Assembly (NCBI GenBank): GCA_025916675.1
Contig: CP098402.1
Span: 1,421,205 to 1,485,204 of the forward strand
Length of the DNA: 64,000 nt
Reading direction: 5' to 3'
Origin: Phycisphaera sp.
GTDB taxonomy: Bacteria; Planctomycetota; Phycisphaerae; Phycisphaerales; UBA1924
The translations under genes and the position numbers were made by a program. Positions 40,105 to 59,089 of the stretch are shown piece by piece (position 1 is the stretch's first letter; each line of letters opens with the position of its first letter). The notes under the pieces are model-generated. The model made no database searches, was not told where the DNA came from, and worked only from the letters and a program-made list of their open reading frames with translations.

Positions 40105-40472
40105 TTTCTGGCGGTTCGCCGCTGCGGCGGGGCGGAAGACCGCCGCGCCTTCGCTCGCCCAACGGGGTTGCTTTTGAGCGGTCGCTTCGCTCCCTTGACG
40201 GCCTGACGGCCGGGCCGCAGAAGCGGCCGCGCCTCCGCATGCGCTCTCGCTCGAAGACTCGTTCGGCGGATGCTCCGTCGCAAGAGCCCGCTGCGCAGGT
40301 TCACACAAGGCACTTCGCGCCGGGGCATCCGCCGTCTTCGGCGCATGCCCCGGCGCGGCGGCCCCCGGCCGCCCGGCCGCTCATGCGGCCGCAAGCGAGC
40401 AACGCGAGCGCTCAAAACAAACCAAGTTCGCGCAGCTCAGGCGCAGCCGTCTTCGGCTCCGCCTGAGCGTCG
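40105..40472. repeat. GC-rich dispersed repeat, copy R2
   Basis: A noncoding GC-rich stretch that matches 55345-55802 over most of its length. Shared blocks include gcatgcgct(c/t)tcgctcgaag, acacaaggcactt/c, ggggcatccgc, ctcatgcggccgcaagcgag and ttcgcgcagctc. Both copies stand just beyond the 3' end of a FnIII-like paralogue. Internal short palindromes are frequent. Open frames here are not protein-like. Confidence 0.75.
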
Positions 40473-40498
40473 AACGTCCAAGCCCGCCCCAACAGCAC

Positions 40499-40545
40499 AA
40501 AACAAAGAGCGAGGGGCCCCGGCCTCCGCCGCGCCCCCTCGCTCG
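40499..40545 (-). terminator. Terminator of the FnIII-like gene, copy 2
   Basis: Arms gagcgagggg (40508-40517) and cccctcgctc (40536-40545). On the minus strand the stem is followed by TTTGTTTTG (down to 40499). It lies 34 bp beyond the stop of the paralogue. Confidence 0.8.
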
Positions 40546-40578
40546 CATACCAAGATCAACATATCGAATTGGCCGGGC

Positions 40579-41229
40579 CTACGCCGCGACGCTGGCCAGC
40601 CCCTGGCCGCCCACACCGAAGCGCACCAGGATCGGCTCGCCCGGCACGGTGTTGACCGTGTGCCGCGCGGTGACCTGGTAGCTCGCGCTCGCCGTGCCCG
40701 CGGGCACGGTGGTGTCGGTGAAGGCCTTGCTGGTGGTGTCGCCGAGGAACGCGAAGGAGGTTTCCCCAGCGAGCTGGCGGGTCACCAAGTAGAAGGTGCC
40801 CGCGGGGCCCTTGCCCTTCCAGCTGAGCTCGACCTGGCCGTTGTTGTTGAGCGTGGCGCTCAGGCCGGTGGGCTCGGCGGGCGGCTCGGCCGGGCTGGGC
40901 GCGCTGGCCCCGCTGATGTCGGCCAGGTCGTAGACCGCCTGGGGGTTCTCGCTGGCCTCGGCGAAGGCCTTGATGGCCAGCACGGCGTCGCTGGCCAGGT
41001 CCTTCATGCCGTCGGCGGTGCCGTACCAGGTCTGGGTAGCCCCCTTGCTGGCGTCGCGGACGGCCAGCGAGGTGGTCAGATCCTGGCGGGCGGAAGCCGC
41101 GGCGGAGATCACGGTCGCGACGGTTTGCGGATCTAGCCCGATCGCCGCGGCGTTGTCGTTCCAGGCGGCGGCGTGGCTCTCGACCCAGAGCAGCGCTTCG
41201 CGCCGGTTCTGGGGCATGTTGGTACCCAT
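40579..41229 (-). CDS. Helical plus FnIII-like protein, copy 2
   Basis: A 216-aa paralogue of 6767-7441 and 55933-56601. Residues 1-110 are helical (EALLWVESHAAAWNDNAAAI; TVATVISAAASARQDLTTSL; LASDAVLAIKAFAEASENP). After a Pro-rich linker, a FnIII-like sandwich has GLSATLNNNGQVELSWKGKG, FYLVTRQLAGETSFAFLGDT and ASASYQVTARHTVN. The tail VRFGVGGQGLASVAA is close to [16 protein letters not shown] of copy 3. AAGGAA precedes the ATG. The open frame continues upstream over the array, but that part is not protein-like. Function is unknown. Confidence 0.8.
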   Translation of the reverse strand: MGTNMPQNRREALLWVESHAAAWNDNAAAIGLDPQTVATVISAAASARQDLTTSLAVRDASKGATQTWYGTADGMKDLASDAVLAIKAFAEASENPQAVYDLADISGASAPSPAEPPAEPTGLSATLNNNGQVELSWKGKGPAGTFYLVTRQLAGETSFAFLGDTTSKAFTDTTVPAGTASASYQVTARHTVNTVPGEPILVRFGVGGQGLASVAA

Positions 41230-41491
41230 GATCGGTTCCTTTCTATGCAGCGGCGCTCGCCGCCTGCGTCTGGGTTTGCGGCGCTCGCCGCGGGTCTTCG
41301 TGTCCGGCCCGAGCACCGTGCCCGGGCCGATGCCCCTGGATCGCCCGATCGCGCGGGCCGCAACGGTCGCAAGGCTCGAAATCGCAGAAAACCGGTCCGG
41401 TTGTGCCGGTCGTACCGGTCGCGCGGCCGCACGGACGCTCGACGCCCCCCCAACGCTCCCCCATCGCGTTGCACGCCGACGCCCGAGAAGC
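41230..41491. other. 5' region of FnIII-like copy 2
   Basis: About 260 bp of GC-rich sequence between the paralogue start and array C. No gene is seen. It should contain the minus-strand promoter, which I could not place. Confidence 0.5.
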
Positions 41492-41701
41492 GCGATGATC
41501 GATCGTTGATCATCGACTGCCGGTCCTTGATGGTCGAGTGCGCGTCGCCGAACATCGAACGCGGGCCGCTCTGGATCGAGGCGCGGCACCGCACGATCGA
41601 TCGGCCGCTCCCGGGGCTCGAACGCCGATCCTGGTCGGTCGGGTGCCCGCGATCGATCATCGAGTGCCCGCCGTCGGCGTGCGACCATCGGGCACGCGGC
41701 C
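41492..41701. repeat. 21-bp-period array C (10 units)
   Basis: Ten units of exactly 21 bp from 41492. Units 2-9 (41513, 41534, 41555 and so on) each begin with tcga or tcgg, while the rest of each unit varies widely. Palindromes such as atcgatcg and tgatca recur. The array ends 105 bp before the -35 box of the plus-strand FG-GAP gene and begins 262 bp from the minus-strand FnIII-like gene. Confidence 0.88.
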
Positions 41702-41806
41702 CCGGCCGCCGCGCCACCAGCCGCCCACCCCGCCCGCCCCACCGGCCCCGCGTGGCCCGCACGCCCGATAGCCCGATGGCAGCCGACCGATGCCGCCGTT
41801 GTGCTC

Positions 41807-41835
41807 TTGCACGCGCGGCCGGATTTCGGTATGCT
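41807..41835 (+). promoter_or_regulatory. Promoter of FG-GAP gene 1
   Basis: TTGCAC (41807-41812), 17-nt spacer, TATGCT (41830-41835), followed by AGAGGAGA and the ATG at 41857. The block cggccggatttcggtatgct is echoed as cggccgatcctggtatgct before the second FG-GAP gene. Confidence 0.65.
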
Positions 41836-41856
41836 TGGGCCCAGAGGAGAACATCC

Positions 41857-43170
41857 ATGCCCCGAATCCGTGACCTCGTGGCCGTGCCGGCCGCTGCCGC
41901 CCTGATGGCCCCGGCCGTGCTGGCCCAGGACTGCGACCCCGCCGAGATCTTCGCGCCCCAGGTGGCCTACGGCGTAGGCGACCGTGCCGACGCCGTCGCA
42001 ATCGGCGACCTGGACGGCGACGGCGACGCGGACCTGGCCGTGGCGAACGCGGTGAGCGGCGACGCCAGCGTGCTGCTGAACAACGGCGACGGCACCTTCG
42101 CCTCCGACGTGCTTTATGCCGCTGGCGACTACCCCAGGGCGGTCGCGATCGGCGACGTGGACGGCGATGGAGACGCTGACCTTGTTGTTGCAAATACGAA
42201 TGGCAATGACATCAGCGTGCTGCTCAACCGCGGCGACGGCACGTTCGCGCCGCAGGTGCGCTACGCGGGGGGTATCGGCCCGCGTTCGGCGGCCATCGGC
42301 GACTTGGACGGCGACGGCGACGCCGATCTGGCTGTAACGAACGGGTTCGACCGTGATGTCAGCGTACTGCTCAACAACGGCGATGGGACGTTTGGGCCCC
42401 AGGTGTCCTATGGCGCGGGCAATGGGCCAAGGTCCGTAGCAATCGGCGATCTGGACGGCGACGGCGACGCGGACCTCGCCGTGGCGAACACCTTCAGCCA
42501 AGACGCCAGCGTGCTGATGAACAATGGCGATGGCACCTTCGCTTCCGATGTCCTCTATGACCTTCCGTTCGGGGGCCAGTCCGTGGCGATCGGAGACCTC
42601 GACGGGGATGGTGCCCCCGACCTTGCCGTGAGCACCACCGGGACCACGGCACTGGGCGGCGTGAGCGTGCTGCTCAACAATGGCGATGGCACCTTCGCAT
42701 CCCAGGTGGGCTATGTCGCGGGCGCGTTCGGCAGCTCGGTGGTCATTGGTGACCTGGACGGCGATGGCGACGCCGACCTCGCGGTAGCAGACGGCCAAGC
42801 CAGCAACCTGAGCGTGCTGATCAACAACAGCGATGGCACCTTCGCACCCGAGGTGCTTTACGTTTCGGGCTCCCGCCCCACGTCTGTGGCGATCGGCGAT
42901 CTGGATGGCGACGGAGACCCCGATCTCGCCACGGCAAACAGAGGGGATCTTCCCGGGGATGCCAACGTGGGCGTGCTGCTCAACCGGTGCGGGCCCTACG
43001 GCTGCCCGGCCGACCTGGACGGCGACGGCGCGCTGACCATCTTCGACTTCCTGGCGTTCGGCAACCTGTTCGACCTGATGGACCCCGCCGCCGACTTAGA
43101 CGGCGACGGCGACTTTACGATCTTCGATTTCCTGACGTTTCAGAACGCGTTCGACGCCGGGTGCCCGTAG
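41857..43170 (+). CDS. Secreted FG-GAP/VCBS protein 1 with dockerin-like tail
   Basis: A 437-aa exported protein. The signal peptide ends at MAPAVLAQ. Seven repeats of the form SVAIGDLDGDGDADLAVAN...VSVLLNNGDGTF build a calcium-binding beta-propeller of the FG-GAP/VCBS type. The C-terminus has two dockerin-like units, DLDGDGALTIFDFLAFGNLF and DLDGDGDFTIFDFLTFQNAF, ending DAGCP. The start is fixed by AGAGGAGA and the signal peptide; the frame is open upstream through array C but is not protein-like there. Confidence 0.88.
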   Translation: MPRIRDLVAVPAAAALMAPAVLAQDCDPAEIFAPQVAYGVGDRADAVAIGDLDGDGDADLAVANAVSGDASVLLNNGDGTFASDVLYAAGDYPRAVAIGDVDGDGDADLVVANTNGNDISVLLNRGDGTFAPQVRYAGGIGPRSAAIGDLDGDGDADLAVTNGFDRDVSVLLNNGDGTFGPQVSYGAGNGPRSVAIGDLDGDGDADLAVANTFSQDASVLMNNGDGTFASDVLYDLPFGGQSVAIGDLDGDGAPDLAVSTTGTTALGGVSVLLNNGDGTFASQVGYVAGAFGSSVVIGDLDGDGDADLAVADGQASNLSVLINNSDGTFAPEVLYVSGSRPTSVAIGDLDGDGDPDLATANRGDLPGDANVGVLLNRCGPYGCPADLDGDGALTIFDFLAFGNLFDLMDPAADLDGDGDFTIFDFLTFQNAFDAGCP

Positions 43171-43182
43171 AGTATGAAATCG

Positions 43183-43268
43183 GCAAATAAGCAAATAAGC
43201 AAATAAGCAAATAAGCAAATGGGAAGATGCGCAAATCCGGATTTGCGCATCTGCCCATTTGCTTATTT
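43183..43268. repeat. 8-bp tandem repeat leading into a 30-bp-arm palindrome
   Basis: Four exact copies of gcaaataa (43183-43214), then an inverted repeat with 30-nt arms (43209-43238 and 43239-43268) with one mismatch and no spacer beyond the central ccgg. It lies between the convergent FG-GAP gene and csrA and may act as a bidirectional terminator. Its low GC content contrasts sharply with the surroundings. Confidence 0.85.
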
Positions 43269-43279
43269 CGTTATTTCTC

Positions 43280-43540
43280 TTACGCCGGCGCCGCCGCGTC
43301 CTTCACGCGTACCTCGACCTCGGGCACGGGCTTCTCGGCCTGGCCGTTGCCATTGGGCGTCTCACCCTCGGCCGCGATCTGCTCGGCGACCTCCCGACGG
43401 TGCACGTCGATCGTCCTCGGAAAATCGAACGCCAGCCGGATGCGATCGCCCTTGATCGACGCGATCCGCACCACCCCGATGGGGTTCTTGGGGTCGCCGA
43501 CCACTACTTCTTCGCCCTCACGCCTCGTAATCACCAGCAT
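43280..43540 (-). CDS. csrA: Carbon storage regulator CsrA
   Basis: An 86-aa RNA-binding regulator that blocks translation at GGA-containing sites. MLVITRREGEEVVVG, IGVVRIASIKGDRIRLAFDF and VHRREV match the CsrA fold. A charged tail of about 30 residues (VAEQIAAEGETPNGNGQAEK and on) extends beyond the usual 60 aa. The ATG at 43540 gives the family N-terminus. No Shine-Dalgarno site is visible and no flagellar gene is adjacent. Confidence 0.88.
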   Translation of the reverse strand: MLVITRREGEEVVVGDPKNPIGVVRIASIKGDRIRLAFDFPRTIDVHRREVAEQIAAEGETPNGNGQAEKPVPEVEVRVKDAAAPA

Positions 43541-43837
43541 GTGCCACCACCATGTGTCGCGCGGGCGCCGAGTGCCCGCTCTTCGCGGCCCCACCATGGG
43601 CCGCCCCTCTCTTCTCGGATTCTCACCGACTCTCATGTCCCTACGGGCCCACCACGAGGAGTGTAACCGACAGGGGCCCGAACCGGCGCTAAATTTGAGT
43701 CTCGGGAGCCAAACGGCCACCGATAACGCGCAAATCTATGGCCCCAAGGCACTTGGCCGGAGTCCAACCAGCGATCAAGTCAAAATAGGGAATCTTCGGC
43801 GGAGCCGATTTCATCTTGGCGACCGGCCGCTGGAGGC

Positions 43838-44182
43838 TTATTCGACGGCCTCGACAGACGTGAACTCGGGCACGTGCTCCCGCAGGTTCCGCTCGAGCCC
43901 GACCTGCAGCGTCAGGCTGCTGCTGGGGCAGCCCACGCAGGCCCCGTGGAGCCGGATGCGGACGACTCCCTGCTCGGTAAACTCCAGGAATTCCACGTCG
44001 CCACCATCGGCCTGGATGCTGGGCCGGAGCTGCTCGATCACCTCCTGGACCCGCACCGCTGGCTGGAGCCGCTCTTCCGCCGATCCGGTGGTCGCAGCGA
44101 CGCCCTGGGGGCCGCGTGCGGCCGTCTCGTCGGCTTGGGGCAGGCTGTGTTCCTTGGCCACGGTGGGATCCTCGGGGGGCAT
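43838..44182 (-). CDS. nfu: NifU-like iron-sulfur scaffold
   Basis: A 114-aa protein whose C-terminal 75 residues are a NifU C-terminal domain: VIEQLRPSIQADGGDVEFLE and the cluster-binding CVGCPSSSLTL. Such Nfu proteins carry Fe-S clusters to target enzymes. The first 40 residues are a low-complexity leader, so the true start could be further in. It diverges from the lipoprotein gene 55 bp away. The 297 bp between it and csrA hold no gene. Confidence 0.9.
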   Translation of the reverse strand: MPPEDPTVAKEHSLPQADETAARGPQGVAATTGSAEERLQPAVRVQEVIEQLRPSIQADGGDVEFLEFTEQGVVRIRLHGACVGCPSSSLTLQVGLERNLREHVPEFTSVEAVE

Positions 44183-44237
44183 CTGGCGTGCGATCGATGT
44201 GCGAACATCTGGGTTCGTCTACCGATAGTATTGCCCT

Positions 44238-45752
44238 ATGCATGGACCCGCAGCGAACCGTACCGTCTTTCTGCTCGCTTTCGCCGCCCTGATGGCCCTG
44301 GCCATCCAGGGCTGCGCCGGCGGCGGCCACAAGCCCAGCGGCGACCCGCTGACCGACTTCCAGAACCCCGAACTCCGCACGCCCGATCGCATCGCCGCCA
44401 TGCGGGCCGCGTGGGAAGCGAACAGCGCCGATCGCTCCCAGCTCAGGCCGCCCCTGAAGTCCATGCTCTGGTCGGACCTAACCCCCCAGGAACTCCGCCA
44501 CGCGGCCATCGACCTGCTGATGAGCGACGATTCCTGGTCTGGCCTGCGTGACTCACAGAGCTTCATCCGGGCCCGCGTACCCACCGAGCGCGACTACGAG
44601 GTCATCCGTCGCATGGGCCGCCAGGCCGTCAGCCGCGGCTGGAGCGATCTGTCCCCCGCCTTCGTTCGCTCCTACGCCATCGAGGACGCCGCGATCGGCG
44701 ACCAGGATCGCGTTGAGAGGGTCATCCTGGAAGCGCTGAACCCCAACCAATCCATGGAACTCATCGCCACCCGGGTGTTCCTGAACCCCCAGCAGGGCAC
44801 GCTGGGCACCATCGACCTCGACGCCCGAGCGCGGGAAGCCGCGTGGGATCTGTTGGCCAGGCTCGACCCCAGCGGCGAGGCCCGCCGGGAAGTCCTGCGA
44901 CGCGACGACCTGCCCACCGACCAGATGGGGGCGCGCACGCTGACCACGATCCGTCGCGGCCTGAGCGAGCTGGGCGTCGTCCCCCGCAACGGCGAGGAAC
45001 TCCGCTGGCTGGTCGCCCTCTCGGAGGATCGCGGCAGCCAGTGGTGGAACCAGGCGGCCGCGGCCGTCGCCGGATTGTCCGATGGGCAGGCCCACGGCCT
45101 CAAGCTCCGCAACCTGGAAGCTGTACGTTGGGCTTCGATCTACCGCGAAGCCTGGATGCGCGACGATCGGGCCCAACTCGAAGGACGCCTGCGGGCACGC
45201 ATTGGCGATCGCGAGACGACGCCCCGCCGGGCAGACCGCAGCGAGCTCAAGGGCGTGCCACAACTCCTTGAGGAGGCCTCGGGCCGCCTCAGTTGGGGCG
45301 ACCTCATGGGCATGCTCGCCGTCGATGTGGCGCTGCACGATCCCGAAGTCATGAAGCGCATCTTCGAGCAGGTCGAGATGGACCGCGAGGACGAGACCAC
45401 CGAGTACGGCGGCCTGCTGTTCGTCGATAGCTCGGGCCGCTTCATCGCGCAGCTCTACCCGCCGCGTCCCCAGCACCGCCAGGGCGACGACACGTTTGTG
45501 GCCTCCTCGGACATGGTCGAGCAGAGCGTCCGCGCCCTGGCGATGTACCATTTCCACGTCATGCGCGAACGCAACAGCAGGTTCGCAGGCCCGAGCGTCG
45601 AAGACTTCGTCCAGGCAAGTACGCAAGGCCGCATGGGCGTCGTGATCACCTCGATCAACGAAGACGAGCTCAACGTTGACGCATTCATCGACGCGCCAGC
45701 AGCGGTCGACTTGGGCGCTCTCCCGCGCGTGCCGGCCTTCATGGACAACTGA
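44238..45752 (+). CDS. Large lipoprotein of unknown function
   Basis: A 504-aa exported protein. The signal peptide ends with the lipobox IQGC. Residues 40-340 are helical and may form HEAT-like repeats (LRHAAIDLLMSDDSW; AREAAWDLLARLDPSGEARR). The last 150 residues have alternating beta/alpha segments (YGGLLFVDSSGRFIAQLYPP; DDTFVASSDMVEQSVRALAM; GRMGVVITSINEDELNVDAF). I do not recognise the family. It precedes the M48-type gene by 23 bp and is probably co-transcribed. Confidence 0.75.
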   Translation: MHGPAANRTVFLLAFAALMALAIQGCAGGGHKPSGDPLTDFQNPELRTPDRIAAMRAAWEANSADRSQLRPPLKSMLWSDLTPQELRHAAIDLLMSDDSWSGLRDSQSFIRARVPTERDYEVIRRMGRQAVSRGWSDLSPAFVRSYAIEDAAIGDQDRVERVILEALNPNQSMELIATRVFLNPQQGTLGTIDLDARAREAAWDLLARLDPSGEARREVLRRDDLPTDQMGARTLTTIRRGLSELGVVPRNGEELRWLVALSEDRGSQWWNQAAAAVAGLSDGQAHGLKLRNLEAVRWASIYREAWMRDDRAQLEGRLRARIGDRETTPRRADRSELKGVPQLLEEASGRLSWGDLMGMLAVDVALHDPEVMKRIFEQVEMDREDETTEYGGLLFVDSSGRFIAQLYPPRPQHRQGDDTFVASSDMVEQSVRALAMYHFHVMRERNSRFAGPSVEDFVQASTQGRMGVVITSINEDELNVDAFIDAPAAVDLGALPRVPAFMDN

Positions 45753-45775
45753 CCGACACCAGCCCCTGAGCGAAC

Positions 45776-47194: not shown

Positions 47195-47220
47195 ATAGCT
47201 CGTTTGCCCGGGAGGGCGAT

Positions 47221-48111
47221 ATGCGATTCACCAAGATGCACGGGCTCGGCAACGATTATGTCTACATCGACGCCATGACCGAGCCCAACCTCGAGAGCTT
47301 GGACTGGCAAGAGCTGAGCGCCCGCATGAGCGATCGGCACACCGGAATCGGCAGTGACGGTGTCATCCTGATCTGCCGGCCACGCGACACGACGAACCAC
47401 GCCCTCATGCGCACCTTCAACGCCGATGGCAGCGAAGCAGACGCGTGCGGCAACGGAACACGGTGTGTAGCCCGGTTTGTCCGAGATCGCTTGGGGGTAT
47501 CAGCCTCGATACTCCATATCGAGTCCGGCACCCGTGTGCTGGAGTGCAAGCCACTTGAAGGCGGCATCGTACGGGTTTCCATGGGCGCGCCCGGATTGGC
47601 ACTCGATGACTGCGACATCAACCCACGTGCGCTGGTGTCTGGCGATCCGATGTGCATCGAGATTGCCGGGCATCACCTCAGATTCAGCGCCGTCTCGATG
47701 GGCAACCCACACGCGGTCGCGTTCGCATCGGACAACCCGTGGTTGGGCGAGCACCTGGCCATGGAAGCATCGACGCTCGGGCCCTTGATCGAACGGCATC
47801 CCGCGTTCGCGAATCGAGTGAACGCCCACCTTGTCCGTGTCGACACGCCATCGCACGCAACTGTTCATACCTGGGAACGCGGCGCGGGCCCGACACGTGC
47901 GTGTGGCACCGGCGCGTGCGCGGTGCTGGTTGCCGCGGTTCTCGCCGGGCGACTCGAGCCTGAAGCAACCCTGATGCTCCCCGGGGGCGATCTGTTGGTA
48001 TCCTGGGCTCCATCTTCGCTCGGCGGCGACGGCATCGTCCGGCAGGCGGGACCGGCGGAGTTTGTGTTCGATGGGCATTGGAGCGTAGCGCGCGAGAGGA
48101 TCATGGCTTGA
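47221..48111 (+). CDS. dapF: Diaminopimelate epimerase
   Basis: A 296-aa enzyme that converts LL- to meso-diaminopimelate for lysine and, where present, peptidoglycan. MRFTKMHGLGNDYVYIDA and the two catalytic cysteines, ACGNGTRC (Cys76) and RACGTGACA, are intact. GGGAGGGCG lies just before the ATG at 47221. Its presence agrees with the peptidoglycan now recognised in planctomycetes. The stop overlaps the next start. Confidence 0.95.
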   Translation: MRFTKMHGLGNDYVYIDAMTEPNLESLDWQELSARMSDRHTGIGSDGVILICRPRDTTNHALMRTFNADGSEADACGNGTRCVARFVRDRLGVSASILHIESGTRVLECKPLEGGIVRVSMGAPGLALDDCDINPRALVSGDPMCIEIAGHHLRFSAVSMGNPHAVAFASDNPWLGEHLAMEASTLGPLIERHPAFANRVNAHLVRVDTPSHATVHTWERGAGPTRACGTGACAVLVAAVLAGRLEPEATLMLPGGDLLVSWAPSSLGGDGIVRQAGPAEFVFDGHWSVARERIMA

Positions 48112-49328: not shown

Positions 49329-49340
49329 AACAACAAAGCC

Positions 49341-49368
49341 GAACGGGCCCATCGTGATGGGCCCGTTC
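49341..49368. terminator. Bidirectional terminator
   Basis: gaacgggcccat (49341-49352) and atgggcccgttc (49357-49368) form a perfect 12-bp stem with loop cgtg. It lies 12 bp after the M20 stop. On the minus strand it is followed by GGCTTTGTTGTTTC, so it can also end the dockerin-tailed gene at 49451. Confidence 0.8.
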
Positions 49369-49450
49369 GATGATCAACCTCGGGGAGGTTTGAGGCTGAC
49401 CACGGCTTTGTTCTACGAATCTGAATCAGGCCAGTATCGGCCCGAGTAAA

Positions 49451-50257
49451 TTACGGGCAACCAGCGTCGAACTGGTTCTGGAACTCGAGGAAATCGAAGA
49501 TCGTGAGCACGCCATCATCGTCAAAGTCGGCAACAGCGAGGTCGCCGGCGTCGAACGCGTTTTGGAATGCCAGGAAGTCGAAGATCGTCAGCGTGCCATC
49601 GCCATCGATGTCGGCACGGCAGCCCACCGCACCGGTCTCGCCGTTGGCGATGATGATCAGGTGGACATCCGGGAAGCCGATGTCGTTGTAATCGGTCGGA
49701 TCCACAGCGCCACAAGTCGGGGCATCGATGTAGCTCGGGCCGGTCTGGCCGAACGCGTTGGAGCCCGGGAAGAACACATCGCCGGTCAGGCCGTCGATCG
49801 TAAAATCAGGGGCGAACACTTCGACGATCAGGGCGGTGCCAGCGTCAACGGTACCGTCGACGTCGATGGTCACCACTTCAAGAGCCCGATCGCCCGAAGT
49901 CAGAGTGGCCGAACCGACGAGATCGAGACCGAAAGCCGGAGCCGAACCCGCCGGAGCCTGATAAAGGTTGACCGTGATGTCGGTTTCGATCGACGTCGGC
50001 AGCAAGAGGTTCTCGATACCCACTTCAACGTCCGAGATGGTGACAGCTTCGGTCACGCCGAAGTCCGCCAGAGTAAACGAACGCCAAAAACCATTCTCAG
50101 CCGTGGTTTGTGGCGCACCGGTCGAGGCGCACGCGATGGTACCCGTGGTGACGAGGAACTCTTCGGTGCTGTGCGACAGGCGCACGGGGTCGGCACTGGC
50201 CACGCCAGCTGCCAGGATGGTGGACAGCGCGGCAACGTTAGCAATCTGCTTCTTCAT
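49451..50257 (-). CDS. Secreted protein with dockerin-like tail
   Basis: A 268-aa exported protein. The signal peptide MKKQIANVAALSTILAAGVA ends near SAD. Residues 25-195 are a beta-rich domain (FTLADFGVTEAVTISDVEVG; ITVNLYQAPAGSAPAFGLDL) with two cysteines. It may be a jelly-roll, but the family is unknown. The C-terminus has two dockerin-like units, DIDGDGTLTIFDFLAFQNAF and DFDDDGVLTIFDFLEFQNQF, ending DAGCP. It is one of three tailed genes in a row on this strand. Confidence 0.85.
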   Translation of the reverse strand: MKKQIANVAALSTILAAGVASADPVRLSHSTEEFLVTTGTIACASTGAPQTTAENGFWRSFTLADFGVTEAVTISDVEVGIENLLLPTSIETDITVNLYQAPAGSAPAFGLDLVGSATLTSGDRALEVVTIDVDGTVDAGTALIVEVFAPDFTIDGLTGDVFFPGSNAFGQTGPSYIDAPTCGAVDPTDYNDIGFPDVHLIIIANGETGAVGCRADIDGDGTLTIFDFLAFQNAFDAGDLAVADFDDDGVLTIFDFLEFQNQFDAGCP

Positions 50258-50441
50258 CTAAAAATCCTCCCTCATGGGATACGAGATAAGCCTCCCACGT
50301 CACTCCCCGGTGCGATGCCGAGGCAGGGGCATCGCGGACGATACAGTTCTTAGCCGACAAGCAGCCATGGGTTGCATGAATCGGTGCCGTACCGAGCCTG
50401 CAAGCAGGAAGCTGAGAGATAAAACTATTATCTGATAGCAG

Positions 50442-50474
50442 AAGCCCCCGAATCTGCAAGAGATTCGGGGGCTT
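50442..50474 (-). terminator. Terminator of tailed gene 50509-51597
   Basis: aagcccccgaatct (50442-50455) and agattcgggggctt (50461-50474) form a perfect 14-bp stem with a 5-nt loop, 35 bp beyond the stop. A T-rich stretch follows further along on the minus strand. Confidence 0.8.
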
Positions 50475-50508
50475 CAGATGTTATTGGATTCAAGTCGAAA
50501 CTGTCAGA

Positions 50509-51597
50509 TTACGGGCAACCGGCGTCGAACTCGTTCTGGAAGGCCAGGAAGTCGAAGATCGTCAGAGCGCCGTCGCCGTCGAAGTCGGCAAGCAAGTCGC
50601 CGGCATCAAACGCGTTCTGGAAGGCCAGGAAGTCGAAGATCGTCAGAGCGCCGTCACCGTCGATGTCGGCGCGGCAATCACTGCCGCAAGGCGAGCCGTC
50701 GCCGATGATGGCATACCGCTGGACGAAATCATAGGGGTCTCCCTGCGCCAGCACGATCGCGGTCACGTTGGTACCGTCCGACTCGATGTCCGCGCCGCCT
50801 GGGATGTAGCCAATGAGGGGATCGCCGCCCACGGCGTCGGTGTCGAACTCACGACCCGTCACGTCACGAGTGGCCGGATCCCATTCGACCAGGCGGGTCT
50901 TGGGGGCGTCCGATGAACCGGTGGTGCCGGTGCGATAGGCATGGAACCACACCGTCTGGTTCACCTGGTCATAGGCCGCGCCATACGCCGAGATGCTATC
51001 CGCAGCCACAATGTCCAGCGTGTTGCCATTGCGATCCATGATCTCGATCGTGCCACCAAAGCTCTTGGTGTAGAACACCTCGTTGTTCGGATCCCAAGCG
51101 AGCGCGCGAACAGTATTGATCGCGCCGTTCATGATCGTCGTCTGGGTCAGGTCGAGCCGCTCGGTGGTCGGATCCCAACGATACTCGATCAGTTCACCGT
51201 TGTCCGCACCGAAGAACAACGCGTTCTCGCTCTCGATGGACGCGCCATCGCGACCACCCCACGGAACCGCAAGGGTCGCTTGGACGTAATCTTCGACAAG
51301 GTTCCAGTCCTCGTCAAACTGCGAGATGAACTGCCCACCGGTGACGCCATCCGCACGGCGGCTGACAAAGTAGTAGCCCCACGCGAACTCGATGCCCAGG
51401 TTAGCCGGATCACCCGTGAGCGTGTTGATGTCCACAGCACATCCGATGCTGTCGCCCAAGGCATCCACCCCGCCGATTGGCGTGGACGGCTGGGAAATTG
51501 TGGTGGAGTTCGAGTCGCCCTCGTTGGCCTGACCGAACGCCATGCCGCACGCGGCGAGTACCGAAACAACGGAAACGGTCGAAGCGATGCGATTCAT
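50509..51597 (-). CDS. Secreted protein with dockerin-like tail
   Basis: A 362-aa exported protein. The signal peptide (MNRIASTVSVVSVLAACGMA) ends at FGQA. Residues 30-300 resemble a beta-propeller of the kind that reports on an observed quantity (DWNLVEDYVQATLAVPWGGR; TVRALAWDPNNEVFYTKSFG; KTRLVEWDPATRDVTG). The tail has two units, DIDGDGALTIFDFLAFQNAF and DFDGDGALTIFDFLAFQNEF, ending DAGCP. AAAGGAG before the ATG at 51597 rules out the longer frame. Confidence 0.85.
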   Translation of the reverse strand: MNRIASTVSVVSVLAACGMAFGQANEGDSNSTTISQPSTPIGGVDALGDSIGCAVDINTLTGDPANLGIEFAWGYYFVSRRADGVTGGQFISQFDEDWNLVEDYVQATLAVPWGGRDGASIESENALFFGADNGELIEYRWDPTTERLDLTQTTIMNGAINTVRALAWDPNNEVFYTKSFGGTIEIMDRNGNTLDIVAADSISAYGAAYDQVNQTVWFHAYRTGTTGSSDAPKTRLVEWDPATRDVTGREFDTDAVGGDPLIGYIPGGADIESDGTNVTAIVLAQGDPYDFVQRYAIIGDGSPCGSDCRADIDGDGALTIFDFLAFQNAFDAGDLLADFDGDGALTIFDFLAFQNEFDAGCP

Positions 51598-51823
51598 ATC
51601 ACCTCTCCTTTGGCTTGTCTGCAAACAGCCTCGGTAGTAGATATCCCAAGCCGATCAGATGGCGGCCTCGAATATCCCAAACAGCGGCCAACACCGGCCC
51701 CACCCCTGGGGGCAGCGTGCGACCTCTTCATGGGTATAGATATACCAGATTCTCGTGCCCGATGGAAGCCAATTTCGGGCCTATCGGCGAAAAATAATTA
51801 CCAAGATCTTGCCCAGACCCCTC

Positions 51824-53494
51824 TCAGCCGCACCCAGCATCGAATGCCGTCTGGAAGGCCAGGAAGTCGAAGATGGTCAGAGAGCCGTCCCCATCGAAGT
51901 CGGCCACGGGCTCTCCAGCGTCAAATGCGGTCTGGAAGGCCAGGAAGTCGAACAGCGTCAGGGAGCCATCCCCATCGATGTCCGCCGGGCACAGGCCGCC
52001 GAGGAGGGCATCCACGGCCGCCGCCATGTCGGGCAACGGACCGATGTGCTGACCGCCGCCCTGGGGCCTCCCAGAGTCGATCAGGAGCTGCCGCAGGTCG
52101 TCCGGAGCCATTGCCTGGCCGGTGGCCGCCCGGTGGATGCCCTGCAAGCTCACCGCCGCCGACGCCACAATGGGCGATGCCGAACTGGTGCCGCTGAAGA
52201 ATTGGGTGTACGACTGGAGTTCGTCCCCACCCACCCGGATGAAATCGCCGTAACCAGCCGTAAACACATTCTGGCCCCAGGCCTGGACGTTCACCCGGCT
52301 GCCATACGTACTGAATCCAAGCCGGCTCCGGCTGCCCGATGAACTCCCAGCACCGACGATGATGGCCCCGCTGTCACCCCGGGAGCGATACTCGGCGTAA
52401 GGACCCGAATCCAGGTCTTGGTCGCCGTTGCCGGCCGCGGCCACGATCGTGACACCGCGGTCGGTTCCCACCCTGGTGATCTGCCACACCAGCGGGTTGA
52501 TCTCGGCCGGTGCGTAGTCGCCGCCGGGCCCGAAGTCCTGCATCTCGAGCAGGATCACGTCGCCCTCGCCCATCGTGCCAACGGCCCGCGAGATCGCCGC
52601 GACACGGCGGCCGCCGCCGGCCTCGATGGTCCACTCGGGGAAGAAGTACGCCTGCGCGTCGGGCACGAGCCCGGTCACCCCGTACCCGTTGTCGCCGCCG
52701 ATCATCTCGCCCAGCACCGCCGTGCCGTGCTCGAACCAGCGTTCATCGATAATCCACTGGGCGGGCGTCTGCCCGGGCTCGGGGATCACCCCGCAGATGT
52801 CCTCGTGGTCGCCGTCGAACCAGTACTCGCAGTCGGCCACGTTCACGCCCTGGCCCCGACCGCCGGGGTGGTCCCACGCGGCGGCCATGCCGATACCAAC
52901 GCTCGCATTGTGGTAGCCCTGGCGTGCGAAGAACTCGGCGGTGATGGGCGCGATGTCGACGCACCCGTCCGGCCCGCCTTGCCACCAGCCCGGCAACGCC
53001 GGCCTCAACGCCTCGTAGTACACCACCTCGACCAGGTCGCTGGCGTGGAGCACACGGGCGACAGCCTCCATCGCCCCATCGTCGACCACGACGGCCATCA
53101 TGCCGCCTAAGTCTGGCTGGGCGCGGCCGCTCCGGCCGGCGGCCTCTTGCAGCATCTGCTCCAAGTCGGCACGGGGCATGTCGATCAAGGGCCGGAACCC
53201 GACCGCCGCGTCGCCGGGGGCAGCGCCAGCAAGTTCGGCTTGGAGTTCCGTCAGATCGACGCCGTTCTCGCTGACGAGCCGCTCATCGGCCCCCACGCGG
53301 GCCCGCACGCGGTCGTGGAACTTGACCGTCAGCCGATGCTCGTGGGCCGGCCGGGCGGGCAGGTCGGCCTTGGCGAACGGCTGGCGTGGCTCAAGGGGCG
53401 CCTGATCGATTCCAGTCGCCAGAGCCTGGCCTGCCCAGCTTCCCAGGCCCACGCTCGCGAGCAGGAGCCACGCCATCGCCGTGTGATGTTTCAT
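51824..53494 (-). CDS. Subtilisin-like protease with dockerin-like tail
   Basis: A 556-aa exported S8-family protein. After a signal peptide (MAWLLLASVGLGSWAGQALA) comes a propeptide-like region of about 150 residues. The triad is visible: Asp in GVNVADCEYWFDG, His in ERWFEHGTAVLGEM and Ser in FFSGTSSASPIVASAA, with the oxyanion Asn in AAAGNGDQD. The tail has two dockerin-like units, DIDGDGSLTLFDFLAFQTAF and DFDGDGSLTIFDFLAFQTAF. It ends DAGCG, not DAGCP. GGGGAG selects the ATG at 53494. A catalytic domain on such a tail suggests anchored or assembled enzymes. Confidence 0.88.
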   Translation of the reverse strand: MKHHTAMAWLLLASVGLGSWAGQALATGIDQAPLEPRQPFAKADLPARPAHEHRLTVKFHDRVRARVGADERLVSENGVDLTELQAELAGAAPGDAAVGFRPLIDMPRADLEQMLQEAAGRSGRAQPDLGGMMAVVVDDGAMEAVARVLHASDLVEVVYYEALRPALPGWWQGGPDGCVDIAPITAEFFARQGYHNASVGIGMAAAWDHPGGRGQGVNVADCEYWFDGDHEDICGVIPEPGQTPAQWIIDERWFEHGTAVLGEMIGGDNGYGVTGLVPDAQAYFFPEWTIEAGGGRRVAAISRAVGTMGEGDVILLEMQDFGPGGDYAPAEINPLVWQITRVGTDRGVTIVAAAGNGDQDLDSGPYAEYRSRGDSGAIIVGAGSSSGSRSRLGFSTYGSRVNVQAWGQNVFTAGYGDFIRVGGDELQSYTQFFSGTSSASPIVASAAVSLQGIHRAATGQAMAPDDLRQLLIDSGRPQGGGQHIGPLPDMAAAVDALLGGLCPADIDGDGSLTLFDFLAFQTAFDAGEPVADFDGDGSLTIFDFLAFQTAFDAGCG

Positions 53495-53612
53495 CGCACT
53501 CCCCAGTGCCCGCCCCAGATACCCGGACGCACCCACACAACGGGCCAGCCGGGCCTCCGAGGCAACCTATCGTCTGGGTTCCCTTTCGCTGTTCCCCGTC
53601 GCCGGTTCGCCC

Positions 53613-55262
53613 ATGCCCACCAATCGCTCCCAAACTCTTGCTCGGATCGCCTGCGCCCTCGACTGGCGTAACGCCATGGGCGTGGTGGAGATCCTGCGCG
53701 GGCCTCCGGGGCCCGCGCAGGGCCTGGACGACCGCGGCCGGCTCCGCTCGGGCCGCCTCAAGGGCCTCTCGATGGCCATGGCCATCTGGGTGCTGAGCTG
53801 GCCCATCCTGGTCGAGAGCGCCCTGAACGCCTTCGTGGGCCTGACCGACACCGTCCTGGCCAGCCAGATCGGCGCGGGGGCGGACGACGGTTTGGGCCCG
53901 CTGGGCGTGTCCGCCGTCGACGCGGTCGACGCCATCAGCGCCGCCAGCTACATCATGTGGTTCATCGGGCTCACCTTCATGGCCCTGGGCATGGGGGCCA
54001 CCAGCCTCATCAGCCGCTCGGTGGGCAAGGGCCGCATGGGCGTGGCCGGGGCAGCGATGGGCCAGTGCCTGCTGCTGGGGGTTGTGCTGGCAACGCTCGT
54101 CGGCGGGCTCGTCGCCATCAGCACCATCTGGATCCCCGGTTTCATGGGCCTGAGCGATGCGGGCACCACCGCCTTCCGCAGCTACATGCTCATCATCGCC
54201 AGCGCCACGCCCGTGGCCGGCGTCCTCTTCGGCGGCATCGCGTGCCTGCGCGGCGCGGGAGACTCGGTCCGCCCGCTCTGGGCCATGATCGCGCGCAACG
54301 TGGTGAACATCGCCGTCAGCTTCGCCCTCAGCGGCGTCGACCTGCCCTTCCTGGCCAACCCCTTCGCCTTCGACATGGGCATCGTCGGCATCGCCATCGG
54401 CACGGTCGCGGGCGACGCCATCGGCGCGGCCATGATCCTCTTCTACTGCCTGGTCGGCCGGTCGGGCGTCAAGCTCCGCCTGCGCCGCCTCAAGCCCCAC
54501 TGGCACACCATCCGCCGCCTGGTCCGCCTGGGCCTGCCCAACTACTTCGAGACCCTGGGCATGTGGGTGGGTAACTTCGCCATCGTCTTCTTCGTCGCCC
54601 ACCTGGCCGCGAAGGACGCGATGCAGGCCCTGGCCGAGACAACACCCGGCCAGTCGGCGGGCCTGCTCGGCTCGCACATGTGGGCCATCCGCATCGAGGC
54701 CCTCAGCTTCCTGCCGGGCTTCGCGATGGGCATCGCCGCCGCCACGCTGGCGGGGCAGTACCTTGGTGCCGGCGCCCCACGCCACGCCATCCGCGGCGTG
54801 CTCATCTGCGCCGCCTTCGCCACGGCCCTCATGGGCTCGCTCGGTGTCCTCCTGTTCGTCTTCCCCACGCAGATCACCAACGCCCTGACCCCCGTGCCCG
54901 AGCACCGCGAGATCGTGCCGCAGCTGCTCATGATCTGCGGCGTCGTGCAGATCCCCTTCGCGATGGCCATCGTCTTCCGCCAGGCGTTGCGCGGCGTGGG
55001 CGACGTGCGGGTGGTCATGGCCCTCACCTGGATCACGACCTACGGCGTCCGCCTGCCCGCCGCATACCTCGCCAGCGGCGTGCGCATCCCCTTGCCCGAC
55101 TTCCTCGGCGGCGGCGAGCTGCCCAACCCCATGGGCGAGCTCTTCGGCTGGGAGCCCAGCCTCACCCGCCTGTGGATCGGCATGTGCGGCGAGCTGGTCG
55201 TCCGCGGCGTGGTCTTCGCCGTGCGGTTCGGGCAGGGGACGTGGACGACGATCCGGGTGTGA
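53613..55262 (+). CDS. MATE-family efflux transporter
   Basis: A 549-aa polytopic protein with two homologous halves of six helices each. Characteristic stretches are LSWPILVESALNAFVGLTDT, FMALGMGATSLISRSVGKG, VAGVLFGGIACLRGAGDSV and LSFLPGFAMGIAAATLAGQY. It should export drugs or metabolites in exchange for sodium ions or protons. The first 55 residues are a soluble extension. A GTGA-loop hairpin follows 14 bp after the stop. Confidence 0.9.
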   Translation: MPTNRSQTLARIACALDWRNAMGVVEILRGPPGPAQGLDDRGRLRSGRLKGLSMAMAIWVLSWPILVESALNAFVGLTDTVLASQIGAGADDGLGPLGVSAVDAVDAISAASYIMWFIGLTFMALGMGATSLISRSVGKGRMGVAGAAMGQCLLLGVVLATLVGGLVAISTIWIPGFMGLSDAGTTAFRSYMLIIASATPVAGVLFGGIACLRGAGDSVRPLWAMIARNVVNIAVSFALSGVDLPFLANPFAFDMGIVGIAIGTVAGDAIGAAMILFYCLVGRSGVKLRLRRLKPHWHTIRRLVRLGLPNYFETLGMWVGNFAIVFFVAHLAAKDAMQALAETTPGQSAGLLGSHMWAIRIEALSFLPGFAMGIAAATLAGQYLGAGAPRHAIRGVLICAAFATALMGSLGVLLFVFPTQITNALTPVPEHREIVPQLLMICGVVQIPFAMAIVFRQALRGVGDVRVVMALTWITTYGVRLPAAYLASGVRIPLPDFLGGGELPNPMGELFGWEPSLTRLWIGMCGELVVRGVVFAVRFGQGTWTTIRV

Positions 55263-55276
55263 TCCCTCCTTCCGAG

Positions 55277-55296
55277 CCGCGTGCGTGAGCACGCGG
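55277..55296 (+). repeat. GTGA-loop hairpin repeat
   Basis: ccgcgtgc (55277-55284), gtga, gcacgcgg (55289-55296): a perfect 8-bp stem after tccgag, in sense orientation just past the MATE stop. About 30 bp are shared with the hairpin at 7828-7848. Confidence 0.7.
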
Positions 55297-55344
55297 ACCA
55301 GCGCCCGGGGGTTCGGGCGCATCGGAGTGTCCGTGTTGTGCTGA

Positions 55345-55802
55345 ACGGGCGTTCTTGGCACTTCGCCGCTCGGCGGGGCCGAGGACGGCCGCGCCTGCGC
55401 TGCGCTCCGTTTGGTTGTTCTTGAGCGCTCCCTTCGGTCGCTTGCGGCCTATCGGCCGGGCCGCTCAGCGGCCGCGCCTCTCGCATGCGCTTTCGCTCGA
55501 AGACTCGCTCGGCGGATGCTTCGGCGTCAGGAGCCCAACGCGTGCGGCCACACAAGGCACTCGGCGACGGGGCATCCGCGGTCTTCCGCGCATGTCCCCG
55601 GCGCCTGGGCCCGCCGCCGAGGCGACACAACAACGCCGGGGCATCCGCACCAGCCGTCTTCGGCGCAGGGCGCATGCCCCGGCGCGGCCCGCAAGGGCCC
55701 GGCCGCTCATGCGGCCGCAAGCGAGCAACGCGAGCGCCCAAGAACAACCAACTTCGCGCAGCTCTGGCGCAGCGGTCTTCGGCTCCGCCAGAGCGTCGGG
55801 CG
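55345..55802. repeat. GC-rich dispersed repeat, copy R3
   Basis: The second copy of the repeat at 40105-40472, about 90 bp longer because of extra sequence near 55590-55690. The two share long near-identical blocks and the same orientation relative to the FnIII-like gene. No coding pattern is evident. Confidence 0.75.
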
Positions 55803-55859
55803 TGCAAGAACCACCCAACACCACAACCCAAACACCCAAGACCCCTCCAACAGCACCCC

Positions 55860-55896
55860 CAAACAACAAAGGGGCCCGGCCTCCGCCGAACCCCTT
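55860..55896 (-). terminator. Terminator of the FnIII-like gene, copy 3
   Basis: Arms aagggg (55869-55874) and cccctt (55891-55896) with an inner ggc/gcc pair. On the minus strand it is followed by TGTTGTTTG. It lies 37 bp beyond the gene stop, the same place as in copies 1 and 2. Confidence 0.65.
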
Positions 55897-55932
55897 CACA
55901 AACACACACAAGATACCGAATCGAGCCAGCGC

Positions 55933-56601
55933 CTACGCCGCCTCGGCCATCGCCATCCCGTTGCCGCCCACACCGAAGCGGACGGCGAACAGGGCCGGGT
56001 CGCCGGCCAAAGTCGACCGCCGCGCGACCACGCGGTACGTCGCCACGGCCGTGCCCGCGGGCACGCTGGCGTCGGTGAAGCGGCGCTCGCCGGTGTTCAG
56101 CAGGTACACGAAGCCGCCCTCGGCCTCGTCCTGGCGCCACACGTCGTAGGTCACGCCCCCCGCCGAGCCGCCCTGGGCCCCGGGGTTGTCGCACTTAAAG
56201 GCCAGCTCGACCGAGCCGTCCTGGCGCAGGTCGATGGCGAACTCGTAGGGCGTGCCCGGGGCCGGCGTGGGCTCGGGCGTGGCCGGGTCGGGCAGCAGCG
56301 CGGTGGCGTAGACCGACTCGTCGCCCGTTGCCTTGGCGTAGCCGCGGATCTTCTGCACCAGGCCGACACCAATCGTGCGCATGGCGTCGGTCTGCGTGCG
56401 GAAGGTCTGGCTGGCCGCCAGCTTGGCGTCGGCGGCCTGCTGGGCGTCCTGGCGCGCCGTCGAGGCAGCGCTCGTGGCGGCGGCCAGCTCGTTGACGAGC
56501 TCCAACGTGAGGCCGATCGACGCGGGGTCGGCGGTCCAGGCCGCCAGGCGGTTGGTGAAGAAGTCGATGGCCTCGCTGCGGCCGTCTGGGATGACGCTCA
56601 T
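55933..56601 (-). CDS. Helical plus FnIII-like protein, copy 3
   Basis: A 222-aa paralogue. Residues 1-115 are helical ([60 protein letters not shown]). A Pro-rich linker precedes the FnIII-like domain ([57 protein letters not shown]) and the tail [23 protein letters not shown] precedes the ATG at 56601. The N-terminal pattern LAAW, x, GL and the Ala-rich helix are shared by all three copies, so this is a small lineage-specific family. Function is unknown. Confidence 0.8.
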
Positions 56602-56821
56602 GACGCACCCCCTTCGAGTGCGCACGGCCCACTGAAGATGGGCGTGCTGGGTGCGGACGGAGAAAGAACGACTGCGATTCGTGCATTCATGACAAACCCC
56701 ATAGGTTGCGATGCATCCGTGCACGCGGCCGACGGTCGGACGCGTCCGGTTCTTGCATCGCCGGTTCGTCCAGCCGGATCGAGCGCCGGATCCATCACGA
56801 ACGCGAAAAACCACACTGCCG
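56602..56821. other. 5' region of FnIII-like copy 3
   Basis: About 220 bp with no gene, between the paralogue start and array D. The minus-strand promoter should be here. Confidence 0.5.
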
Positions 56822-57052
56822 GTCCCAGAACGGCGCGTCTTCGTCCCAGAACGGCGCCAAACCGTCCCAGAACCGACGCCGGTGGTCACCAAAAGCACGG
56901 CGGAGGTCACGACCGAGCGGCCGGCGGTCATCACCGGCGCGTCGGATGTGGTGACCGGGCGGGCGGCGGTCGTGTTTGACCGGCCGGTTGGAAGGCCCGG
57001 TCACCCGTGCGCGGCGGTCGAGCACCCGATCGCGATGGCCGGGCGGCGGAGC
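56822..57052. repeat. 21-bp-period array D (11 units)
   Basis: Units of exactly 21 bp from 56822. Units 1-6 and 8 start with gtc, unit 7 with gtg. The first three share gtcccagaac and then drift (gtcaccaaaa, gtcacgaccg, gtcatcaccg, gtggtgaccg). The last three are recognisable only by phase. The array ends 23 bp before the -35 box of FG-GAP gene 2. Confidence 0.82.
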
Positions 57053-57075
57053 ATGCCCGGCAATGCACATTGGGG

Positions 57076-57104
57076 TTGTGTCGGGCGGCCGATCCTGGTA
57101 TGCT
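57076..57104 (+). promoter_or_regulatory. Promoter of FG-GAP gene 2
   Basis: TTGTGT (57076-57081), 17-nt spacer, TATGCT (57099-57104), then CGGAGGA and the ATG at 57125. Its layout matches the promoter at 41807-41835, including the same -10 box. Confidence 0.65.
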
Positions 57105-57124
57105 ATGGATCGGAGGACAATCCC

Positions 57125-58975
57125 ATGCCCACAACACCTCGCCCCGTTGCGCCGATCGCCGCTTGCGGTTTGGCCATCGCCGGAACCACGCCCCACGCCC
57201 TGGCCCAGGGCGACCCGCTTCTAGAACCATTCCCGGCGGTACTGACACACCTTGACCTGGACGGCCAGATCGGCTTTCGGGTCGAAGGGGTGAGCACCGG
57301 CGATCTGAGTGGATCTTCCGTTGCCGCCGCCGGAGACCTGAACGGCGACGGAATCGACGACTTCGTCATCGGTGCTCTGCGCGCCAGCCGGTTCCCGGCT
57401 GGCGATGATGGCAATGCCTATGTCATCTTTGGCAGGCAAGCCTCGGCGGGGAATCCGTTTCCGGCCGGCGTGCGGCTTGCCGACCTCGATGGCAGCGACG
57501 GATTCCGCATCCTTGGCGCGGACAGCGAGGGCGAACTCGGCAGCTCGGTCGCGGCGGCCGGCGACCTCAATGGCGATGGTATCTCCGATCTCATCGTTGG
57601 AGCCCCCAAGTATGGTCGACCCAGCACCCACACCGGCGCGGCCTACGTCATCTTCGGGCGGGACTCGCTGTCCGGCGCCACGTTCCCAGAGTCCATCGAC
57701 CTGGCTGGGCTGGGCGTCGACGTCGGCTTCCGCCTGCAGGGCGCCGATGGCTTTAACTTTGCTGGTGCTTCGGTCGCCGGCGCCGGAGATATCAACGGCG
57801 ATGGGTTCGACGACGTGATCGTTGGGGCTCCGCGTGCCTACCTCTCACCCGGCGGCGTCGATTACACCGGCATTTCTTACGTCGTCCTTGGCCGCGATAC
57901 GTCTGTCTCCGGCTCGTTCCCGGCCGTGGTGATGCTCGACGAGTTGGATGGCGCCGATGGCTTCGGCATCGTCGGGGTCGAGCAGTCCGAGCGGAGTGGC
58001 CACTCCGTTTCGTCGGCGGGCGACTTCAACGGTGATGGAATCGGCGACGTCATCATCGGAGCCATCTTCGCCGGTCACTCGACGCGGTACGGGTTCAACT
58101 TCGGAGCGAGCTACGTCGTGTTCGGGCGGGACACCGCGGCTGCGGGCGCTTTTCCGGCCATCCTCAACTTGGCCGACCTCGATGGAGCCAATGGCGTGCG
58201 TTTCGAGGGCGTGGATCACGCCGATCTGAGCGGGACCTCCGTTGCGGATGCCGGTGACGTCAACGGCGACGGCGTCGACGACGTCATCATCGGGGCCACG
58301 GGCGTCCAGCGCGATGGACGGTCGTTCGGTTCCAGCTTCGTTGTTTTTGGCAGGGATACCGCGGTTACGGGTCCGTTCGCGGCCATCGAGCAGCTCAGCG
58401 ACTTGGATGGACTGACGGGGTTCCGTCTCGATGCTGGCGGGGACGATCGCTACTCCGGAACCTCGGTGTCCGGTGCCGGCGACATCAACGGCGATGGCGT
58501 GGATGATGTTCTGGTCGGAGCGATTCCTCCTGGCTCGCCCGGATCGTGCTCGATCATTTTCGGGCGCAAGACGAGCGACGCCGGTCCGTTCCCCGAGGCG
58601 ATCTCCTTGACGAACCTGGACGGGACCAATGGGTTTCGGTTCTCCAGGACTGATGGTTCAGACTATGTTGGAGCCTCGGTTGCGGCGGCCGGCGACGTCA
58701 ATGGCGACGGCCAGGAAGACATCATTGTGGGAGGGCCGCAGGTTTCAACGGTCGGAAGCGTGTTGTCAGGTACCAGCTACATCGTCTACGGACGCGATGT
58801 CGCAGCCTGCCCCGCCGACCTCGACGGCGACGGCGAGTTGACCATCTTCGACTTCCTGGCCTTCCAGAACCTCTTCGACGCGATGGACCCCGCCGCCGAC
58901 TTCGATGGCGACGGCGACTTCACCATCTTCGACTTCCTGGCCTTCCAGAACGCCTTCGACGCGGGGTGCCCGTAG
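57125..58975 (+). CDS. Secreted FG-GAP protein 2 with dockerin-like tail
   Basis: A 616-aa exported protein. The signal peptide ends at TTPHALAQ. Seven integrin-alpha-like FG-GAP repeats follow the form SVAAAGDLNGDGIDDFVIGA...AYVIFGR, each with a calcium-loop DxNGDG. The tail has two dockerin-like units, DLDGDGELTIFDFLAFQNLF and DFDGDGDFTIFDFLAFQNAF, ending DAGCP. GGAGGA and the signal peptide fix the start. It differs from FG-GAP protein 1 in repeat type (FG-GAP instead of VCBS) but sits in the same locus design. Confidence 0.9.
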   Translation: MPTTPRPVAPIAACGLAIAGTTPHALAQGDPLLEPFPAVLTHLDLDGQIGFRVEGVSTGDLSGSSVAAAGDLNGDGIDDFVIGALRASRFPAGDDGNAYVIFGRQASAGNPFPAGVRLADLDGSDGFRILGADSEGELGSSVAAAGDLNGDGISDLIVGAPKYGRPSTHTGAAYVIFGRDSLSGATFPESIDLAGLGVDVGFRLQGADGFNFAGASVAGAGDINGDGFDDVIVGAPRAYLSPGGVDYTGISYVVLGRDTSVSGSFPAVVMLDELDGADGFGIVGVEQSERSGHSVSSAGDFNGDGIGDVIIGAIFAGHSTRYGFNFGASYVVFGRDTAAAGAFPAILNLADLDGANGVRFEGVDHADLSGTSVADAGDVNGDGVDDVIIGATGVQRDGRSFGSSFVVFGRDTAVTGPFAAIEQLSDLDGLTGFRLDAGGDDRYSGTSVSGAGDINGDGVDDVLVGAIPPGSPGSCSIIFGRKTSDAGPFPEAISLTNLDGTNGFRFSRTDGSDYVGASVAAAGDVNGDGQEDIIVGGPQVSTVGSVLSGTSYIVYGRDVAACPADLDGDGELTIFDFLAFQNLFDAMDPAADFDGDGDFTIFDFLAFQNAFDAGCP

Positions 58976-59005
58976 GGAAGAGGAGGCATCGGGCACTAGG
59001 CATCC

Positions 59006-59047: not shown

Positions 59048-59089
59048 CGGTGCCTGATGCCCGGTGCCCTGTTCCCTCTACCCTGCCCC

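Follow-up and report, generated by a model that had tools for sequence, protein, structure and literature searches.

Two loci on a planctomycete chromosome raise the question of which of their parts belong together. Both lie in the stretch analysed here (the window), which comprises 64,000 nucleotides (G000:C1:1421205-1485204) of a genome that consists of a single contig of 3.62 Mb (G000). Each carries: a GC-rich repeat, a minus-strand gene encoding a fibronectin type III (FnIII)-like protein, a stretch of 21-bp periodicity, a TTG-N3-N17-TATGCT site, a plus-strand gene encoding an FG-GAP protein with a dockerin tail, and a long hairpin. A first-pass annotation had read this arrangement as a duplicated locus and as a functional module whose plan is kept while its parts diverge, and the order and orientation that it described were recovered at both loci. 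We find that the conserved unit is a pair, namely a helix-FnIII gene and the array upstream of it, in which the period is kept and the unit sequence changes from locus to locus. No description of this pairing was retrieved from the literature (a search excluding preprints and most subscription journals) or from the family databases, and within these sources the pairing is therefore undescribed.

The helix-FnIII gene and its upstream array

A genome search recovered 41 members of the protein family in G000, mostly 28-45% identical to the query, to which a profile search added two short FnIII-only matches; genus-wide, the profile matches per genome numbered 43, 68, 2, 26, 47, 22 and 37. The arrays were detected with a three-lag score that included codon-periodicity controls. 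The counts of arrays, dockerin genes, repeats and promoter-like sites in G000 cover 1.33 Mb, about a third of the genome, and the gene calls in the genome-wide scans were crude. In this part 46 segments passed at a lag of 21 bp and none at lags of 19, 20, 22 or 23 bp, which puts the period reported by the first-pass annotation far above chance; a lag of 27 bp passed 44 segments as well, which are attributed to the 81-bp dockerin repeat. An array was found upstream of about 38 of the 41 paralogues and never only downstream, and 38 of the 46 detected arrays were situated within 6 kb of a family gene. A 526-kb region rich in FnIII genes contained 13 arrays and 9 family genes, and a 397-kb region free of FnIII genes contained one strong and two borderline arrays. 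Between 2.81 and 3.61 Mb, G000 has 0.8 Mb without any family gene, which is nearly free of arrays in the half that was read and has a normal number of dockerin genes.

The pairing was also present in other genera and families of planctomycetes and in another planctomycete class. A strict array call was obtained for 17 of the 27 loci in other planctomycete genomes, and an array was found near the gene in all nine evaluable loci of WOR-3/Stahlbacteria, Elusimicrobia and Brocadiia, including one (L158) that has three units only, at a contig edge. Upstream of two family members in genome G031 (L193 and L200) the period was 20 bp rather than 21.

All 38 arrays analysed in G000 have an exact 21-bp period and consist of about 5-13 abutting units that are about 61% alike. 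The mean match was 0.61, 0.63 and 0.62 at lags of 21, 42 and 63 bp, against 0.26-0.31 at all other lags between 1 and 65, and adjacent units are thus no more alike than distant ones. The consensus units of the 38 arrays are essentially unrelated, with the exception of one pair. Coding heptad repeats were ruled out by the lack of a codon-position signal in the arrays (mod-3 p=0.93) and, further, by the 20-bp arrays of the other genome. The consensus units of two distant arrays in G000, those of F28 and F32, match at 20 of 21 positions on opposite strands, with dissimilar proteins; as the units are degenerate, this may be chance.

The proteins of the two window loci, F13 (216 aa; 40579..41229, minus strand) and F00 (222 aa; 55933..56601, minus strand), matched nothing in Pfam, and nothing in NCBIfam above the cut-off. 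The same was true of the distant homologues, three of which were tested for fn3 and did not match it. The FnIII-like call of the first-pass annotation was nevertheless borne out at the level of the fold: the AlphaFold model of F13 (39-row alignment; mean pLDDT, the predicted local distance difference test, 93.6) consists of an N-terminal domain that contains a helix of 59 residues and, behind it, an FnIII sandwich, and the C-terminal fold was backed by Foldseek (E down to 3.7e-5, target-normalised template-modelling score up to 0.79). The model shows no apparent DNA-binding fold, and neither a Rep-like Pfam match nor a PADLOC match was obtained for the family protein. Judged by profile-profile comparison (E=4.6e-9 over 183 columns), the near and distant helix-FnIII proteins are homologous and form one superfamily. 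The proteins end in AA or AG in 38 of 41 cases, reminiscent of a ClpXP-type degron, and a C-terminal degron is possible. Most family genes have a common motif, WTCGGACTSAAGYC, near -110 to -150 (log-likelihood ratio 120, against 46-49 for shuffled sequence), possibly the promoter of a specialised sigma factor; in array-adjacent loci the array therefore sits upstream of this putative shared promoter.

Cargo exchange and candidate roles of the array

The segment between array and FnIII gene is a place where unrelated genes are acquired and exchanged, and several of these are defence-like. In about 15 loci of G000 the array is found 1-5.6 kb upstream with other genes in between, and always on the upstream side. 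The intervening genes (cargo) occur in either orientation and include those for a methylase, a HATPase protein, a KAP NTPase, a SIR2-like protein and beta-helix and dockerin proteins. Partial matches to known defence proteins were obtained for methyltransferase, HATPase, KAP/PifA- and SIR2-like cargo, and the other cargo was without match. The F05 site has the same order in G000, G005 and G003 (array, an unrelated large gene, an orthologous FnIII gene). The FnIII protein of G000 is 71% identical to that in G005 and 58% to that in G003, and the large gene encodes a KAP NTPase in G000, an 1188-aa protein without Pfam match in G005 and an NB-ARC/TPR protein in G003, two of the three being NTPases; BLASTP linked neither the G005 nor the G003 protein to that of G000. 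The F24 site lacks matching cargo in G005. The first window locus occupies the ndk-csrA site, which carries a different FnIII/array/dockerin set in G005 and has nothing of the kind in G001, G002 and G004, where it is empty. A secreted protein of roughly 610-660 aa recurs together with dockerin-tailed genes between array and FnIII gene at three loci (L043, L027 and L040, with F36, F20 and F33). A phage or plasmid origin was rejected, as the queries used gave no matches in the viral contig, phage or plasmid collections.

The arrays themselves turn over too. Units from the F05 site agree between genomes at 9-10 of 21 positions, no better than chance. The arrays of cargo-free orthologues may share units (16/21 for a ppk-linked pair), those of the F00 clade share the gene-proximal units only, and the arrays of a protein pair that is 93%/98% identical are visibly related yet re-homogenised, with different consensus units. 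Array turnover is thus a case of concerted evolution in which the period is held.

Within the arrays, conservation is uneven between columns (Fisher 4e-16), and there is more dyad symmetry than expected by chance (Fisher 1.6e-6 in G000, 6e-11 elsewhere). The upstream position, the two-turn spacing, the uneven constraint on columns and the dyads together fit a multi-site protein-binding platform. We tentatively favour, at somewhat less than even confidence, the reading that the array is such a platform, phased by two helical turns, that controls the FnIII gene and is located at hot spots of gene turnover. Units spaced 21 bp (rarely 20) apart would place dyad-biased sites on one face of the DNA, upstream of the FnIII promoter; a putative dimeric DNA-binding protein would stack cooperatively on them, and the bound array would switch the FnIII gene, and any gene inserted between, on or off. 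The reader would be a protein other than the FnIII protein, and it would cope with changing units either because it recognises repetition, spacing or shape or because it co-evolves. We consider it rather unlikely, although worth stating, that the array is recognised by its two-turn periodicity and internal repetition instead of by a fixed sequence, and in this way marks chromosomal sites beside a helix-FnIII protein gene at which defence-like and surface genes are exchanged in several phyla.

Several observations weigh against control by a bound platform. No DNA-binding partner was found linked to the array-FnIII pair. The unit sequence changes although the gene remains in place, which would not happen with a conventional operator, and significant dyad symmetry is confined to about a third of the arrays. 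In the about 15 cargo-bearing loci, genes of either orientation part the array from the FnIII gene, which is awkward for a simple promoter-proximal operator. Finally, the 1.33 Mb include 6 to 8 arrays (two borderline) that are not near any family gene.

For the cargo-bearing loci, a platform for recombination or integration is almost as good an explanation: an incoming array with its cargo would replace the segment upstream of the FnIII gene, and gene-exchange hot spots would result. This is what the F05 site suggests, with its orthologous FnIII gene in G005 and G003 beside a different array and a different large gene, and the F24 and ndk-csrA sites, with their missing or differing contents, point the same way. 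However, no integrase, transposase, att site or target duplication came to light (no systematic search for any of these was made), in many loci, those of other phyla among them, the array directly adjoins the gene, and homologous exchange between conserved flanks would look identical. Over all loci together we hold recombination to be a less probable role than control of the FnIII gene.

The dyads might also reflect transcription of the arrays, which would then function as RNA, in the form of repeated hairpins or small RNAs, and slight covariation was indeed measured in the G000 arrays (mean z 0.54, p=0.008). It was absent from the 29 arrays of other genomes (z -0.02), a strong hairpin is missing from most arrays, and the arrays of gene-proximal loci sit upstream of the shared promoter motif. 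Given this dyad excess with weak or no covariation, DNA sites fit better than RNA hairpins, and a role as RNA seems improbable.

Since the FnIII-family protein is the sole protein consistently linked to the array, it could be thought to bind its own array, in autoregulation or in a partition-like assembly. Protein and array-unit divergence are not correlated, however (Mantel r=-0.07, p=0.89, N-domain), and this lack of co-variation disfavours the FnIII protein as reader, as do the different consensus units of the 93%/98% identical pair, the acidity of the family proteins (median pI 5.0; N-domain 4.7) and the model without apparent DNA-binding fold. We thus regard self-binding as quite improbable. 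Slightly less probable still is that the arrays are neutral minisatellites that survive by chance near family genes: their units do turn over by local amplification of variants, but this reading is already contradicted by the fixed period, which is the single lag of 38 unrelated arrays and recurs across phyla, and column-specific constraint and the upstream-only position speak against it as well.

The window loci and their occasional neighbours

In the first window locus the degenerate array of F13 (41472..41726; about 8 units, mean column identity 0.68) is followed by a TTGCAC-N17-TATGCT promoter-like site (41807..41835, plus strand) and a gene for a secreted FG-GAP protein with a GC-type dockerin tail (41857..43170, plus strand). 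In the second locus the array of F00 (56783..57128, including the gene-proximal units GGTTCTGGGACG+9) is accompanied by a TTGTGT-N17-TATGCT site (57076..57104, plus strand) and a second such gene (57125..58975, plus strand). The promoter-like sites described by the first-pass annotation are thus present, and they are the only two matches to TTG-N3-N17-TATGCT in the window, with 7 in the 1.33 Mb. The difference in type that it noted between the plus-strand genes is likewise real: the first matches FG-GAP_3 and the second FG-GAP (Pfam), and both proteins end in the GC-type dockerin NF041540 (40.1 and 43.2 bits, against a curated cut-off of 29). So are the long hairpins beyond these genes (43183..43269, -45.5 over 43180-43280; 58985..59070, -78.9 over 58976-59075). 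Of the two predicted terminator hairpins, that of the first locus is strong (-40 kcal/mol; 40480-40580) and that of the second weak (-17). The copies of the GC-rich dispersed repeat (40105..40520 and 55345..55850) are about 80-81% identical over 267+202 bp; the repeat occurs at 20 loci in the 1.33 Mb and within 1.5 kb of 11 of the 41 family genes, against roughly 2 expected from its share of the sequence.

To call the locus duplicated is misleading, because F13 and F00, only 34% identical, fall into separate clades of paralogues, and neither the arrays nor the FG-GAP types agree. Recent duplication of one composite locus was ruled out on the same divergence of the FnIII paralogues and on the unrelated arrays.

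F19 (224 aa; 6767..7441, minus strand), the third family gene of the window, has its own array (11246..11522) 3.9 kb upstream, from which it is separated by unrelated genes (399, 248 and 170 aa; 7983..10461, minus strand). An orphan array, TCGGGCGATNGCCAGAATNAT (21253..21563), with no family gene near, lies upstream of a nucleotidyltransferase-like gene and has a divergent small gene on its other side; five further clear orphan arrays were seen in G000.

The dockerin gene is an occasional neighbour. There are 72 dockerin open reading frames in the 1.33 Mb, and one was present within 1 kb of 12 of the 46 arrays, against 7.5+/-2.5 expected, which is not significant against random points. The 397-kb region without FnIII genes contains 21 dockerin genes and the 526-kb region rich in them 25, and a dockerin gene on the far side of the array was found in only about 4 of the 22 array-adjacent loci. 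As a fixed partner it was rejected genome-wide. An exception is the F00 subclade, which retains such a gene on the far side of its array at three sites (in G000, G005 and G003); G001 is probably a further case, with array and FG-GAP/dockerin gene on separate contigs. In the window three dockerin-tailed genes, one of them a subtilase, are clustered at 49451-53536, with synteny kept in most of the genus. Although both window loci have all its parts and the F00-type genes have a dockerin gene past the array, the proposed four-part module, in which a cytoplasmic FnIII protein is paired with a dockerin-tailed surface protein, is very improbable as a general arrangement, because the dockerin link is at chance level and dockerin genes are equally common where FnIII genes are absent. 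The plan that is kept while its parts diverge therefore comprises the FnIII gene and the array, and the unlinking of the pieces in relatives, which the first-pass annotation named as evidence against its proposal, was observed in the case of the dockerin gene but not of the array.

Comparison with known systems

The iterons of plasmid origins are sites of about 20-22 bp that stand in tandem beside a gene, with a spacing of two helical turns, and the arrays resemble them in these respects. Iterons share one sequence that is read by the adjacent Rep, whereas here each locus has its own unit (38 arrays with essentially no shared consensus), no Rep initiator gene is adjacent and the neighbouring protein shows no sign of reading the array; moreover, there are about 41 chromosomal copies and no match in 72,556 plasmid records. 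With clustered regularly interspaced short palindromic repeats (CRISPR) they have in common an array beside a protein gene that is hypervariable between relatives. The units abut, however, and are degenerate, instead of being conserved repeats with unique spacers, and the adjacent protein is not Cas-like; the Pfam scans run on the neighbours gave no Cas match. Like defence or accessory hot spots, the loci hold varied cargo (restriction-modification-, KAP-, STAND- and SIR2-like) between conserved flanks, with the difference that many sites here share a marker pair, the array and the helix-FnIII gene, which flanks the cargo. Eukaryotic satellite DNA likewise conserves the length of its monomer while the sequence turns over by concerted evolution, but the present arrays are short (5-13 units) and stand upstream of one bacterial gene family. 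As to the proteins, the family shares the fold of fibronectin type III proteins (Foldseek) and does not match the Pfam fn3 model, and the two plus-strand neighbours are ordinary members of the GC-type dockerin proteins (NF041540) with FG-GAP propellers, outside the general pair.

An element that is fixed in position and period, free in sequence and tied to one uncharacterised family across phyla does not match the known classes of operators, iterons, CRISPR and minisatellites. If the array is functional, a factor in the cell would have to read spacing or repetition, or else the reader co-evolves very fast. The pair also offers a signature by which one can search for an expanded family without a curated name, with up to 68 copies per genome, and for loci that swap genes, including defence-like ones.

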